64,000 nucleotides of DNA from Sediminibacterium goheungense (GTDB taxonomy: Bacteria; Bacteroidota; Bacteroidia; Chitinophagales; Chitinophagaceae): positions 62,001-126,000 of the forward strand of contig NZ_SNWP01000011.1 in assembly GCF_004361915.1 (NCBI RefSeq), written 5' to 3'. Shown here one piece after another: positions 47,976 through 53,124 of this stretch. Position numbers and translations under genes: made by a program. Under the pieces are notes generated by a model. That model did no database searches. It had not been told where the DNA came from and saw only the letters and a program-made list of their open reading frames with translations. Position 1 is the first letter of the stretch; every line of letters starts with the position of its first letter.

Positions 47976-49619
47976 ATGAAGAAACTATTGATTTTGTTGT
48001 TATTGGTACCTGTACTTTCCTGGTCGCAGAGTAAACGCAAAAAGAGAATTGCGGAAGAAAAGGCTAATGCAACTTTATTGGCTAACCTGAAAACTCATGT
48101 AGCTTATCTGGCTGATGATAAACTGGAAGGGCGCTTAACAGGCAGTAGAGGGGAAGAACTTGCAGCACAATACATCATTCAACAGTATGAACAGCTGGGT
48201 ATCGGAGCAAAAGGTACAAAAGGTTATGAGCAGGTATTTGATATCAATGAAGGTAAACAAATAGATGCCACAACAAAGCTGATTATAGATGAGAAAATAT
48301 TAGCAGTAGGTAAAGACTATTTCCCGCTTGCATTTAGCCCCAATAAAACAGTGAAAGGCAAACCTGCCATGATATTGAGCGAAAAAAACCAACCCTGGTT
48401 TTATGATGTTAAAGAAATACTGGAAGAACAAAAGAACAATCCGCATTTCGATATTGAAGCAGCTATCAAAAAACAGGTTGAAACAGTAATCGCTAAGGGG
48501 GCTACGGCTTTATTTGTATATAATAGCGGTACTGTAACAGATAATATTCAGTTTAATAAGAATGATCGGTCTTCCTTATTGCCTATACCTGTCGTTTATC
48601 TTACGAAAGAAGGCGTAAAAAAATATTTTGCTGATGAGGAAGCCAGTCTGGATATTTCATTAACAGTATCCCTGTCTGACAAAAAAAGAAAAGGTAGAAA
48701 TATCATTGCCTTTATTGATAACCAGGCTGCCAATACAGTAATTATTGGCGCGCATTATGATCACCTCGGTTATGGAGAAGATAAGACCGCATTGGATACT
48801 TTTCATGCCATACACAATGGAGCCGATGATAATGCAAGTGGAACGGCAGCATTGCTGGAACTGGCCCGCCTGCTGAAAGAAAAATCGCCCGTTAATAACA
48901 ATTACCTCTTTATTCATTTTTCAGGAGAAGAACTTGGGTTATTGGGCAGTAAATACTGGCTTGAAAACCCAACCATAAAAGTGGCGCCTAATTACATGAT
49001 TAATATGGATATGGTAGGCCGTTACGATACTGCGCACAAATTAACCGTTGGTGGTTATGGCACATCACCTGCATGGGCCGAGGTCTGGAAAAACCTGAAG
49101 ACCACACTGATAACCAAATTTGATAGTACAGGTAGCGGCCCCAGCGATCATGCAAGTTTTTATCGCGCCAATATACCAGTACAGTTTTTCTTTACAGGAA
49201 GTCATCCAGATTACCATAAAGTGAGCGATGATGCCGATAAAATAAATTACACGGCACAAGGTGATATTGTAAAGCTGATTTATGATTTGATTACACAGAC
49301 GGATACCAGGGGCAAATTAAACTTTGCAAAAACAACAGAACCGCAAATGGGACAAACACGTCGGTTTACGGTATCGCTGGGTGTGATACCCGATTATGGA
49401 TTTACAGGTACAGGTATGCGTATTGATGGTGTAAGCCCTGGAAAACTGGGTGAAAAAATCGGTCTGCAGGCGGGTGATGTACTTATTCAACTGGGCGAGT
49501 TTAAATTTGTAGATGTAATGAGCTATATGCAGGCACTGAATGGCTTCAAAGCAGGCGATAAAACCAAACTGCGGATTAAAAGAGGAACAGAAGAGAAAGA
49601 ATATGATATTCAATTCTAA
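47976..49619 (+). CDS. Secreted M28 family zinc aminopeptidase with C-terminal PDZ domain
   Basis: 547 residues with a signal peptide. Zinc-binding residues are visible in IIGAHYDHLG (His), GADDNASG (bridging Asp), FSGEELGL (general-base Glu pair), MDMVGR (Asp) and HPDYHKVSDD (His). A protease-associated-type insertion lies at about 120-230. A PDZ domain occupies about 450-545 (GFTGTGMRIDGVSPGKLGEKIGLQAGDVLIQLG). Likely a periplasmic or cell-surface aminopeptidase degrading peptides for nutrition. Confidence 0.92.
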   Translation: MKKLLILLLLVPVLSWSQSKRKKRIAEEKANATLLANLKTHVAYLADDKLEGRLTGSRGEELAAQYIIQQYEQLGIGAKGTKGYEQVFDINEGKQIDATTKLIIDEKILAVGKDYFPLAFSPNKTVKGKPAMILSEKNQPWFYDVKEILEEQKNNPHFDIEAAIKKQVETVIAKGATALFVYNSGTVTDNIQFNKNDRSSLLPIPVVYLTKEGVKKYFADEEASLDISLTVSLSDKKRKGRNIIAFIDNQAANTVIIGAHYDHLGYGEDKTALDTFHAIHNGADDNASGTAALLELARLLKEKSPVNNNYLFIHFSGEELGLLGSKYWLENPTIKVAPNYMINMDMVGRYDTAHKLTVGGYGTSPAWAEVWKNLKTTLITKFDSTGSGPSDHASFYRANIPVQFFFTGSHPDYHKVSDDADKINYTAQGDIVKLIYDLITQTDTRGKLNFAKTTEPQMGQTRRFTVSLGVIPDYGFTGTGMRIDGVSPGKLGEKIGLQAGDVLIQLGEFKFVDVMSYMQALNGFKAGDKTKLRIKRGTEEKEYDIQF

Positions 49620-49624
49620 CAGAA

Positions 49625-49668
49625 ATAGTTCATAGCACATCAATTATGGCCCATAAGCCATGAACTAT
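49625..49668. repeat. Nested inverted repeat ATAGTTCAT...ATGAACTAT
   Basis: 9-bp arms at 49625-49633 and 49660-49668 enclose a second palindrome TTATGGcCCATAA at 49644-49656. Member of the TTATGGC tract family; likely terminates the M28 gene. Confidence 0.7.
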
Positions 49669-49686
49669 GTACCATCGACTACCACC

Positions 49687-50130
49687 ATGGCAACAACGAA
49701 ACTCAGACTGAACATTGAAGAACTCAACGAAGATTTCTTTGATGATACCCGCTTACTGGGCATAACCGCACCGGTAAAAAATTACCAGTTCTGTTTGCAG
49801 TTGAATAATTTGCTGGGCTACCAGTTCAGGTTGAATCCAGGATTGGAAATACATCTACGCAGAAAAGAAAGAAGCTACTATTTCAGTATTTATGAGTCAA
49901 AAGAACCGAATAGCTTTTTGGTTCATTATTTATACCATAACCAGTTTGATGGAGAATATCTTTTGCCTGAGTTTAAGCATATGGATTTTTTGTGGCTGAT
50001 GAAAGGCGATTTGGTAGATGATGCCAGATGTAGCTGGATCAAACAATCTGTCAGAAACCTGTCGGGTGTTCAGTTGGTAGCCGAACTTACCAATGAGCAG
50101 ATAAAAAATAAAGGGAATATGGTTTTTTAA
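49687..50130 (+). CDS. IPExxxVDY family protein
   Basis: 147 residues, matching a small Bacteroidota family named for its conserved motif; here it reads LLPEFKHMDFLWLM around residues 91-104. Other features: an N-terminal KLRLNIEELNEDFFDDTRLLGI and a central SYYFSIYE strand. Function unknown; cytoplasmic. The frame runs back to 49660 through the preceding repeat, so the ATG at 49687 is used. Confidence 0.85.
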   Translation: MATTKLRLNIEELNEDFFDDTRLLGITAPVKNYQFCLQLNNLLGYQFRLNPGLEIHLRRKERSYYFSIYESKEPNSFLVHYLYHNQFDGEYLLPEFKHMDFLWLMKGDLVDDARCSWIKQSVRNLSGVQLVAELTNEQIKNKGNMVF

Positions 50131-50208: not shown

Positions 50209-50439
50209 ATGTGGACAGAAGAGAACAATAAGCTTTACCGGAAATTTCAGTTTAGTAATTTTTCAGAAGCTTTTGCTTTTATGACAAGGGTAGCGATTGA
50301 AGCGGAGAAAATGAACCATCATCCTTACTGGAGTAATGTGTGGAACACTGTTGAAATATGGTTAAGTACACATGATGCCGGAGATCTGGTAACAGAACTG
50401 GATCATACCCTTGCCAAACGAATTGATAAATTGCTGTAG
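50209..50439 (+). CDS. phhB: 4a-hydroxytetrahydrobiopterin dehydratase
   Basis: 76 residues. The active-site motif [20 protein letters not shown] with the paired histidines and the final [21 protein letters not shown] are diagnostic of pterin-4a-carbinolamine dehydratase. Recycles the pterin cofactor of aromatic amino acid hydroxylases or acts in related cofactor metabolism. Slightly shorter than average (about 95) at the N-terminus but complete in the core. The next gene starts 1 base after its stop. Confidence 0.9.
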
Positions 50440-50440
50440 T

Positions 50441-51292
50441 ATGGCAACTTTGCCCACCACCGTTATGCTGATGAAACCCCATGCAAAAATGGGGAAACCG
50501 GTAGCCAAAGCATTTCAATCTTTGTATCAGGTATTACTGGAACAGGGAGTAGATAATATTCTTGTGAATCAATCTGCTGAAAGTACCATTGGCGCCTTGT
50601 ATCCTGCCTGTTGGTTAACTACTTTACCGGAAGGTATTGTACTGATATTACCTATACACAGGAGAGAAAGGAGACAGGAAAAGAGAGATGATATTCTCGA
50701 AACACTTGAAAAGAAATACCTGTTAAAAGATGTGGAAGACTGGAGTGAGTTCGAAGTGGAAGGGTTTTTTCTGGAAGGTACCGCGAGTATGGTCATAGAC
50801 CACCAGCATAAGTTGATTTACGCCTCTCATTCCCCGCGTACACATACTGCCATACTTGAAAAACTATCTTCTGCACACAAATACAAAGCCATTACTTTCA
50901 ATGCCAGAGATGGTGCCGGAAAAATACCCTTACATACGAATATGCTCATGCATTTCGGTGAAGATTTTGTGCTTTTATGTGAAGAAGCATTTACCGATGA
51001 TATGGATCTGATGGCTGTTAAGCAACTGCTTTTATCTACCGGTTACCGGATTATACCTTTTACCCTCGATCAGCTGGCATTGTATATGGGGAACAGCTTT
51101 TCCTGCAAAAGTAAAGATGGAAAGTCCCTGTTACTAATGGGTGAGCCGGCGGTAGCTTCATTAACGCAAGAACAACGCAAACAGCTGGGTAAACAGGTGA
51201 AGATTTTTCCCATTTCAGTGGAAGCGATCGAAACAATAGGAGATGCAGGATTAAATGCAATGCTGGTGCCGATATGGTTGCAGACAAAATAA
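50441..51292 (+). CDS. Amidinotransferase-fold protein (CtlX-like) lacking the catalytic cysteine
   Basis: 283 residues. Follows the pattern of the CtlX / arginine-deiminase-related family: TVMLMKPHAKMG at the start, FFLEGTASMVID, IPLHTNMLMHFGEDFVLL, MGNSFSCKSKDGKSLLLMG and a C-terminal IETIGDAGLNAMLVPIWL. In active members the last motif reads GGGSxRC; by ungapped alignment the Cys falls on Ala273 here, and the glycines and Arg are also changed. The His motif and EGT motif remain. It is therefore probably inactive as a hydrolase, or works differently. Starts 1 base behind phhB; convergent with selD. Confidence 0.75.
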   Translation: MATLPTTVMLMKPHAKMGKPVAKAFQSLYQVLLEQGVDNILVNQSAESTIGALYPACWLTTLPEGIVLILPIHRRERRQEKRDDILETLEKKYLLKDVEDWSEFEVEGFFLEGTASMVIDHQHKLIYASHSPRTHTAILEKLSSAHKYKAITFNARDGAGKIPLHTNMLMHFGEDFVLLCEEAFTDDMDLMAVKQLLLSTGYRIIPFTLDQLALYMGNSFSCKSKDGKSLLLMGEPAVASLTQEQRKQLGKQVKIFPISVEAIETIGDAGLNAMLVPIWLQTK

Positions 51293-51293
51293 C

Positions 51294-52346
51294 TCAGGCA
51301 TTTACCAGTACTGTTTTCTCTGCTTTTGCTATCATTTTTCCGATAGGCGTAAGGAAATGATTCAGTTCATTTTCCATGAGAATATGCTGAATTTCTTGCA
51401 GAGCCTCGGGATCAGCAGCAATCAGTAACCCACCATTGGTTTGCGGATCGGGTAATACATTAAATGCTTCCATTACATTTACGCCCTGCCCGAAGCCTGT
51501 TTTTGTGCTATAACTGTTCCAGTTGCGATAAGTGGCATCAGGTATAATTCTTTGTGCGAGATATTTTTTAGCAGCTTCGAGAATAGGCACAGCTGTATAA
51601 CTGATTTCAGCAGATAAGCCACTCCCTTCCGCCATTTCGATCAGGTGACCCAATAAACCAAAACCGGTTACATCTGTCATGGCATGAACAGCATCTGTTT
51701 TTCCGAGAACAGTACCCACTTTGTTCAATAACATCAGTTGATTCAATAATACAGACTGGTCCTCTTCTTCCAGTACATTTCTTTTTTGTGCGGTAGATAA
51801 AATACCCACACCCAAAGGTTTGGTTAAAAACAGCAAATCACCTTCTTTGGCAGTATTATTTTGTTTTAGCTGGGTTTTGTTGATGAGACCATTTACCGAT
51901 AAACCAAAAATGGGTTCCGGCGAATCAATGCTATGCCCTCCCGCTAATGGAATACCCGCTTCATGGCAAATGGCCCTGGCTCCTTCAATTACCTGTTGTG
52001 CCAGTTCAGGGGGTAATTTGTCGATGGGCCATCCTAAAATAGCAATGGCCATAATGGGTGTTCCCCCCATAGCATATACATCACTGATGGCATTGGCACC
52101 AGCTATTTTTCCAAATGAAAAAGCATCATCCACAATCGGCATAAAAAAATCGGTTGTACTGATGAGAGCTTGTCCATTTCCCAGATCGTAAGCAGCAGCA
52201 TCGTCTTTACTGGCATTGCCTACGAGTAGTTGCGGAAATATTTTTTGTGATACATCTGTTTTCAGAATGGTGTCCAATACAGCCGGGGCAATTTTGCAAC
52301 CACAGCCGGCGCCATGCGAAAATTGGGTGAGTTTTACAGTTTCCAT
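51294..52346 (-). CDS. selD: Selenide, water dikinase (selenophosphate synthetase)
   Basis: 350 residues. Catalytic loop SHGAGCGCKIAP has Cys15 and Lys18 (the C17/K20 pair of E. coli SelD), so this is the Cys form and not a selenoprotein. Further AIRS-type motifs: DDAAAYDLGNGQALISTTDFF, GGTPIMAIAILGWP, AGGHSIDSPEPIFGLSVNG and DVTGFGLLGHLIEMA. Makes selenophosphate from selenide and ATP for selenocysteine or 2-selenouridine synthesis; no selA, selB or selU gene is in view. ATG at 52370 would overlap birA by 8 bases; the ATG at 52346 matches family length. Confidence 0.92.
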   Translation of the reverse strand: METVKLTQFSHGAGCGCKIAPAVLDTILKTDVSQKIFPQLLVGNASKDDAAAYDLGNGQALISTTDFFMPIVDDAFSFGKIAGANAISDVYAMGGTPIMAIAILGWPIDKLPPELAQQVIEGARAICHEAGIPLAGGHSIDSPEPIFGLSVNGLINKTQLKQNNTAKEGDLLFLTKPLGVGILSTAQKRNVLEEEDQSVLLNQLMLLNKVGTVLGKTDAVHAMTDVTGFGLLGHLIEMAEGSGLSAEISYTAVPILEAAKKYLAQRIIPDATYRNWNSYSTKTGFGQGVNVMEAFNVLPDPQTNGGLLIAADPEALQEIQHILMENELNHFLTPIGKMIAKAEKTVLVNA

Positions 52347-52362
52347 ACAATTGCAAGATAAG

Positions 52363-53124
52363 TTACTCAATCATCCAACTGACTTCGCCAAACTGAAAAC
52401 GATCGGTTGGGCCATTTTCTACCAGCAGTTCCCCCGATTCATTAACAGCTTTTAATACACAGGAAAAGCGGGTATTGGCTTTTTTCAGGTGAATAAGTTC
52501 TCCTTTTTTGAATAAATGATTATTATATGCATCCAGTAATACACTGAAAGGAACCCGGTTTACTTGCAAAAGCCGATTATTTATGTAACTGCATAGTTCT
52601 TTAGCCAATTGAACAGGGTCAAAGCTTTTGCCCGTGATCTGTTTCAATGAAACAGGATTCAATAAGGCAGGATCAAATACAACCTGATTAATGTTAATGC
52701 CTATTCCTGCAACAGACCACTGCCATTTATGACCTCGTAACTGATTTTCAATAAGAATGCCACCTGCCTTTCTGTCACGCCAATAAATATCATTGGGCCA
52801 TTTAATGGAGGTTTCTTCTCCGGCATAATGGCTAAAAAAATCGTGGCAGGCCAGTGCGATAATTACGCTTAAATGGAATTGCTGACCATGAACGAGGGGG
52901 TTAGGATCGATTACAGCCGACATAATCAGGTTCTGACCCGCTTCTGTTACCCATTGTTTTCCATGCTGCCCCTTACCAGCCCATTGCCGGTGCGCAAAAA
53001 AAACCGAACCATGTGTTGCCATATTGTGTTGAATATGGGTCATGGCATAGATGTTGGTGCTATCCGTTTCAGATAATTCCACAAACGGTTGCCCAATTGG
53101 TGCTTTAACGTTCTCTGATGGCAA
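52363..53124 (-). CDS. birA: Biotin-[acetyl-CoA-carboxylase] ligase
   Basis: About 253 residues. Catalytic-core motifs: ELSETDSTN, HRQWAGKGQHGKQW (ATP/biotin loop, GRGRxGR variant), IKWPNDIYWRDRKAGGILIEN and AGIGININQ; small C-terminal domain with RFSCVLKAVNESGELLVENG. No N-terminal HTH, so a ligase only, not a repressor. No ATG exists before the conserved core; the start is a TTG, at 53124 or at 53169. A box TAACTTCG at about 53142-53149 favours the shorter form. selD follows on the same strand, nearly overlapping. Confidence 0.88.
   Translation of the reverse strand: MPSENVKAPIGQPFVELSETDSTNIYAMTHIQHNMATHGSVFFAHRQWAGKGQHGKQWVTEAGQNLIMSAVIDPNPLVHGQQFHLSVIIALACHDFFSHYAGEETSIKWPNDIYWRDRKAGGILIENQLRGHKWQWSVAGIGININQVVFDPALLNPVSLKQITGKSFDPVQLAKELCSYINNRLLQVNRVPFSVLLDAYNNHLFKKGELIHLKKANTRFSCVLKAVNESGELLVENGPTDRFQFGEVSWMIE

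Follow-up and report, generated by a model that had tools for sequence, protein, structure and literature searches.

The window, i.e. the whole stretch of 64,000 nucleotides of Sediminibacterium goheungense DNA that was analysed, carries at 50441-51292 a gene for a CtlX-like protein whose catalytic cysteine is replaced by alanine. The gene, its motifs and its neighbours are listed below.

47976..49619, + strand: M28 peptidase, conserved neighbour (profile match)
49660..50130, + strand: IPExxxVDY family protein, conserved neighbour (profile match)
50209..50439, + strand: phhB, pterin-4a-carbinolamine dehydratase, upstream (Pterin_4a, E 3.7e-27)
50441..51292, + strand: probable CtlX-derived pseudoenzyme, 283 aa (PF19420, E 4.2e-49; NF046062, 204 bits, cut-off 334)
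50480..50485, + strand: site of the deleted N-terminal loop (~20 aa), near residues 14-15 (alignment)
50600..50614, + strand: YPACW, residues 54-58, replacing FPNNW, with Cys57 (50609-50611) at the second Asn (alignment)
50774..50782, + strand: EGT kept, Glu112-Gly113-Thr114 (alignment)
50933..50941, + strand: HTN kept, His165-Thr166-Asn167 (alignment)
51239..51259, + strand: GDAGLNA replacing GGGSxRC, with Ala273 (51257-51259) at the catalytic Cys (alignment)
51294..52370, - strand: selD, convergent downstream neighbour in 8 clade loci (profile match)

The open reading frame starts with ATG one base behind phhB and runs without interruption for 283 residues. That the gene is intact and so closely linked, that its catalytic Cys is replaced by Ala and that EGT and HTN remain had been pointed out in the initial annotation, and all of this holds: the codon of Ala273 is GCA, and both Glu112 and His165 are present. 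The alignment further shows that the changes go beyond the loss of the Cys, as the N-terminal loop and the FPNN motif are also gone. The protein is a member of PF19420 (DDAH_eukar; the pentein, or guanidino-group-modifying, superfamily), with 167.8 bits against a cut-off of 23. Its score of 204.2 bits with NF046062 (CtlX) is under the curated cut-off of 334, as are those of its relatives L011 (230 bits) and L013 (260 bits), and the intact homologues L061, L041 and L008 are over it with 356, 401 and 427 bits.

In passages of Price et al. (2022, PMC9007349), CtlX is described as a putative citrulline hydrolase only, and its FPNN and HTN motifs are given as the counterparts of FTRD and HLD of arginine deiminase, with Asn in place of the substrate-binding Asp. 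The protein encoded in the window is homologous to CtlX over residues 17-277 and retains EGT and HTN, but it lacks the nucleophilic Cys, the N-terminal loop and FPNN; of the two motifs that supply the substrate Asn, HTN is present and FPNN reads YPAC.

Seventy CtlX-like loci gave 64 distinct proteins once six duplicates were dropped. Eight of these make up what we call the dead clade; of the other 56, 30 belong to clade 2 and 26 are canonical CtlX. The catalytic Cys of GGGSxRC is present in 0/8 dead-clade members vs 56/56 of the other aligned homologues, whose C-terminal motif is GGGSxRC or close to it. A broader control comprised 40 more family matches, next in rank order; the Cys is present in all 39 that reach the motif, the fortieth (L104) ending earlier at a contig end. 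The residue at this position is Ala in group alpha (the protein of the window, L001 and L005), Ser in group beta (L002, L003, L004 and L011) and Ala in group gamma (L013). Chance and sequencing error were ruled out because the loss is common to eight genomes, whose dead-clade proteins are distinct sequences.

The lesions are not confined to the nucleophile. The 56 others are invariant to at least 95% in 71 columns; all eight dead members match them at 26 of these columns, and at least one dead member deviates at the remaining 45. The N-terminal loop, which we take to be the substrate lid, is deleted in 8/8. In intact proteins it follows the pattern FxxNxxTAxxNxFQ (FGFNxETAxNNxFQ-like), whose Asn, Thr and Gln occur in 55/56 intact rows. 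Both Asn residues of FPNN, the second of which presumably corresponds to Asn71 of ArgZ, and the Arg preceding the Cys position are gone in seven of the eight members. L013 retains the Asn pair and the Arg, and has Tyr at the catalytic His and Val at the Pro of FPNN. Glu112, Gly113, Thr114, Thr166 and Asn167 are conserved in all eight. Glu112 and His165 are both kept in 7/8, and therefore other chemistry may be possible. The seven alpha and beta members that have Cys57 also share another cysteine, Cys222 (51104-51106), which L013 and L061 lack.

The pentein fold is predicted to be retained. The AlphaFold2 model of the protein has a pLDDT of 95.1 and a pTM of 0.91; its top match was human DDAH-1 in Foldseek (E 3.0e-13) and ArgZ (6jv1) in VIA-align (Z 26.9, rmsd 2.6, 249 residues aligned), where DDAH-1 reached a Z of ~25. 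The model of the intact L061 aligned with ArgZ at Z 30.0 (rmsd 2.5, 266 aligned). The range ends of the alignment, 282 to 273, would place residue 273 on Cys264 of ArgZ if the match is gap-free. The best structural matches, the arginine dihydrolases ArgZ/AgrE and DDAH-1, are enzymes with a catalytic Cys (C264 in ArgZ, according to the titles of mutant structures) at ~12-19% identity. These relatives were identified by fold comparison only: a profile of 50 homologues found nothing among solved structures at E 0.01. Two matches from the corresponding search with the single protein (E 0.45 and 0.73) were taken as chance.

In a protein tree of the 64 rows, the eight dead proteins form one branch (support 100/97) nested among clade-2 proteins; its sister is L061 (99/88), an intact protein from the same locus. 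The dead clade, judged from this tree, probably has one origin, to which the loop deletion common to all eight also points. Its branches are long (0.37-0.79 changes per column), and between-group identity is 45.5-53%, e.g. ~53% for alpha vs beta (the protein of the window vs L002), against ~73-94% measured for the neighbours. Within the genus, the gene is found at E <= 1e-45 in 8/147 genomes, always of the dead type; the other 139 have no match at this threshold, in a set where 54 of the 147 miss the joint standard of 90% completeness and <5% contamination. The role of the protein is therefore dispensable in those 139. Weaker genus matches from the 26 loci analysed, with ~20 further weak ones left out, all fall within the canonical CtlX clade.

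The order M28-IPExxxVDY-phhB-X-selD, X being the dead gene, is found in 8/8 dead loci. The initial annotation had raised the possibility of an entire clade that lacks the Cys and keeps the linkage to phhB, and this is what the alignment of homologues reveals, in all eight members. The dead gene lies on the strand of phhB with a one-base gap in 6/8 loci, and in L003 as well if an alternative start is used. M28, IPExxxVDY and phhB are also upstream of 17 of the 30 clade-2 loci, where the motifs are intact; selD is downstream in eight of these 17, with flanks of mostly ~1.5 kb, and was not found in the flank inspected beside the sister L061. Since intact orthologues share the linkage, it does not indicate a new role related to phhB. 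Moreover, 17 genus loci without the gene still hold M28, IPExxxVDY and phhB; selD lies no more than 1.5 kb away in 13 of them, and tblastn at E 1e-3 detected no gene remnant in the 17. A locus tree puts the carriers of the dead gene on one side of a weakly supported branch (SH-aLRT 69, quick method). In three genus loci (L075, L083 and L089) there is no selD within 1.5 kb of phhB, and a birA-like gene follows phhB.

We would like to point out that phhB at 50209-50439 itself looks like an orphan, as its own genome has no PF00351 match. A search for aromatic amino-acid hydroxylase (PF00351), whose control rang in 1/14, was positive in 0/9 genomes, i.e. this one and eight others. The idea that phhB serves phenylalanine hydroxylation is thus unsupported in these nine genomes.

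All eight carriers of the dead gene have a second CtlX, and its motifs are intact. It is full-length in seven and partial in the eighth (G090), where a contig of the fragmented assembly ends within the second ctlX. Among genomes with intact clade-2 loci a second CtlX match occurs in 1/29 (G218), and among those with an intact copy at the phhB locus in 1/16. An arcA-like gene (E <= 1e-30), called arginine-deiminase-like because the queries from L048 and L041 score under the cut-offs of NF002381 and TIGR01078, is present in the genomes of seven of the eight carriers, all but G090, always adjoining the second CtlX, and in 1/16 genomes with an intact phhB-locus copy, a set that omits the genome of L006. 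Such a match flanks 24/26 canonical CtlX loci and 12/13 clade-2 copies outside the phhB locus, and was not found in the flanks of phhB-locus copies (0/17 intact, 0/8 dead). Fisher tests of the second CtlX (8/8 vs 1/29, P 2e-7) and of arcA (7/8 vs 1/16, P 2e-4) take no account of relatedness and serve as description only, because the carriers are one lineage; their co-occurrence with a second CtlX is one event, not eight. Within the genus, a canonical CtlX-type match is found in 5/5 carriers vs 41/96 non-carriers (P 0.017). Redundancy need not lead to loss, since in G218 the copy at the phhB locus and the one linked to arcA are both intact.

The dead gene evolves under purifying selection. Pairwise dN/dS is 0.071-0.084 within beta and 0.037-0.049 within alpha, the values for the two alpha pairs that include the gene of the window being rough at a dS of ~3, near saturation; for L001 vs L005, dS is 0.89 and dN/dS 0.049. 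The neighbours have within-group dN/dS of 0 to 0.13. In beta the dN/dS of the gene is close to that of birA and exceeds those of M28, IPExxxVDY, phhB, selD and rsfS; in alpha it is lower than those of selD and birA. Neutral simulations at distances of 0.44 and 0.89 left 0/500 sequences stop-free in each case, with mean identities of 0.41 and 0.21 vs 0.90 observed between L001 and L005, and the gene has no internal stops in 8/8 genomes. Neutral decay was rejected because dN/dS is low (0.04-0.08) and the simulations always broke the frame. Catalytic residues lost throughout the clade and a sequence held by purifying selection, the combination that marks a pseudoenzyme, are thus found together.

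We argue, with a probability of roughly 80%, that the gene encodes a maintained pseudoenzyme, freed by redundancy and kept for a putative non-catalytic role in binding or with a partner. The second, intact CtlX of the carriers, which adjoins arcA in 7/8, could have made catalysis at the phhB locus dispensable. The copy at this locus would then have lost catalysis, and the dead protein may have been retained in a non-catalytic capacity, most likely to bind a partner protein, which we favour, or a ligand. The likeliest partner would be the intact CtlX paralogue in a heteromer, which we rank above PhhB and a free metabolite, a suggestion that we regard as tentative and, taken by itself, doubtful.

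One could instead see a relic heading for loss, on which selection was relaxed after redundancy and which has no current function. Its long branches (0.37-0.79), the between-group identity of 45.5-53% vs ~73-94% in the neighbours, the 139/147 genus genomes without a match and the 17 gene-less loci that still hold M28, IPExxxVDY and phhB are all consistent with such a fate. The within-group dN/dS of 0.04-0.08 argues against it, as do the frames free of internal stops in eight genomes when neutral simulation always broke them, and we consider a relic unlikely. About as improbable is a narrower form of the pseudoenzyme reading, in which the protein is a regulator or subunit specific to PhhB. The shared strand and the one-base gap in 6/8 loci (and in L003 with the other start) would fit a PhhB partner, but the same linkage is found in 17 intact loci, 17 genus loci have phhB and lack the gene, and aromatic amino-acid hydroxylase was not found in any of the nine genomes searched.

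A catalytic alternative is that the nucleophile has moved, so that Cys57, together with His165 and Glu112, would act on a new substrate. Cys57 is present in 7/7 alpha and beta proteins although the two groups are only ~53% identical, and the same seven proteins keep His165 and Glu112. The pocket of alpha and beta might, from these residues, have been rebuilt around the three as a pentein enzyme or as a thiol or metal site. We give both ideas very little probability: the N-terminal loop is deleted in 8/8, which weighs against a Cys57 enzyme, and in L013, the most divergent member, Asn takes the position of Cys57 and Tyr that of the His.

A maintained pseudoenzyme would not be without parallel. 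The closest precedent is RESC5 of Trypanosoma brucei (8dpk), which, according to passages of PMC9980740, has a DDAH-like fold with Cys replaced by Ala and His by Pro, keeps Asp and Arg pocket residues and is an RNA-editing subunit; a passage of a 2026 review (PMC12936278) terms it a pseudoenzyme. Like RESC5, to which its model aligns at Z 21.4, the dead protein has a DDAH-like pentein fold, as predicted, with Ala at the catalytic Cys. RESC5 differs in being a eukaryotic RNA-editing subunit that has also lost the His, and for the dead protein, sister genera carry intact orthologues at the same locus. Pentein pseudoenzymes are thus a known kind of protein, as RESC5 exemplifies. eIF6 is not known to be catalytic. 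A passage of the NnhA paper (PMC11659421) lists eIF-6 in the superfamily. A limited literature search found no bacterial dead clade derived from CtlX with intact relatives at the same locus.

What we describe looks like a non-enzyme that arose naturally from an enzyme and is kept in an old gene cluster of a few related bacteria. Its history is legible, with the gene intact at the same locus in sister genera, dead in one sub-lineage and not found in the remainder of the genus, and the redundant intact copy that plausibly permitted the change can be named, i.e. arcA-ctlX. If true, this would provide a testable case in which redundancy came first, then the loss of catalysis and finally a new non-catalytic use. 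It also calls for caution that CtlX and DDAH-like names given by homology may not here mean citrulline hydrolysis by the known mechanism.

Two observations concern the other CtlX copies. In nine loci (L041, L047, L048, L050, L052, L054, L056, L059 and L064), a clade-2 CtlX starts within 20 bases after an arginine-deiminase-like match. The sequences of these adjacent pairs suggest an operon for the conversion of arginine to citrulline to ornithine by two pentein enzymes. Moreover, contigs C5 and C7 of the assembly that holds the window (G000) share a canonical ctlX region at the same coordinates, near 87816-90450. Over 2635 bases they differ at 42, all from base 2584 onwards and so close to where C7 ends; this looks like a duplicated contig.
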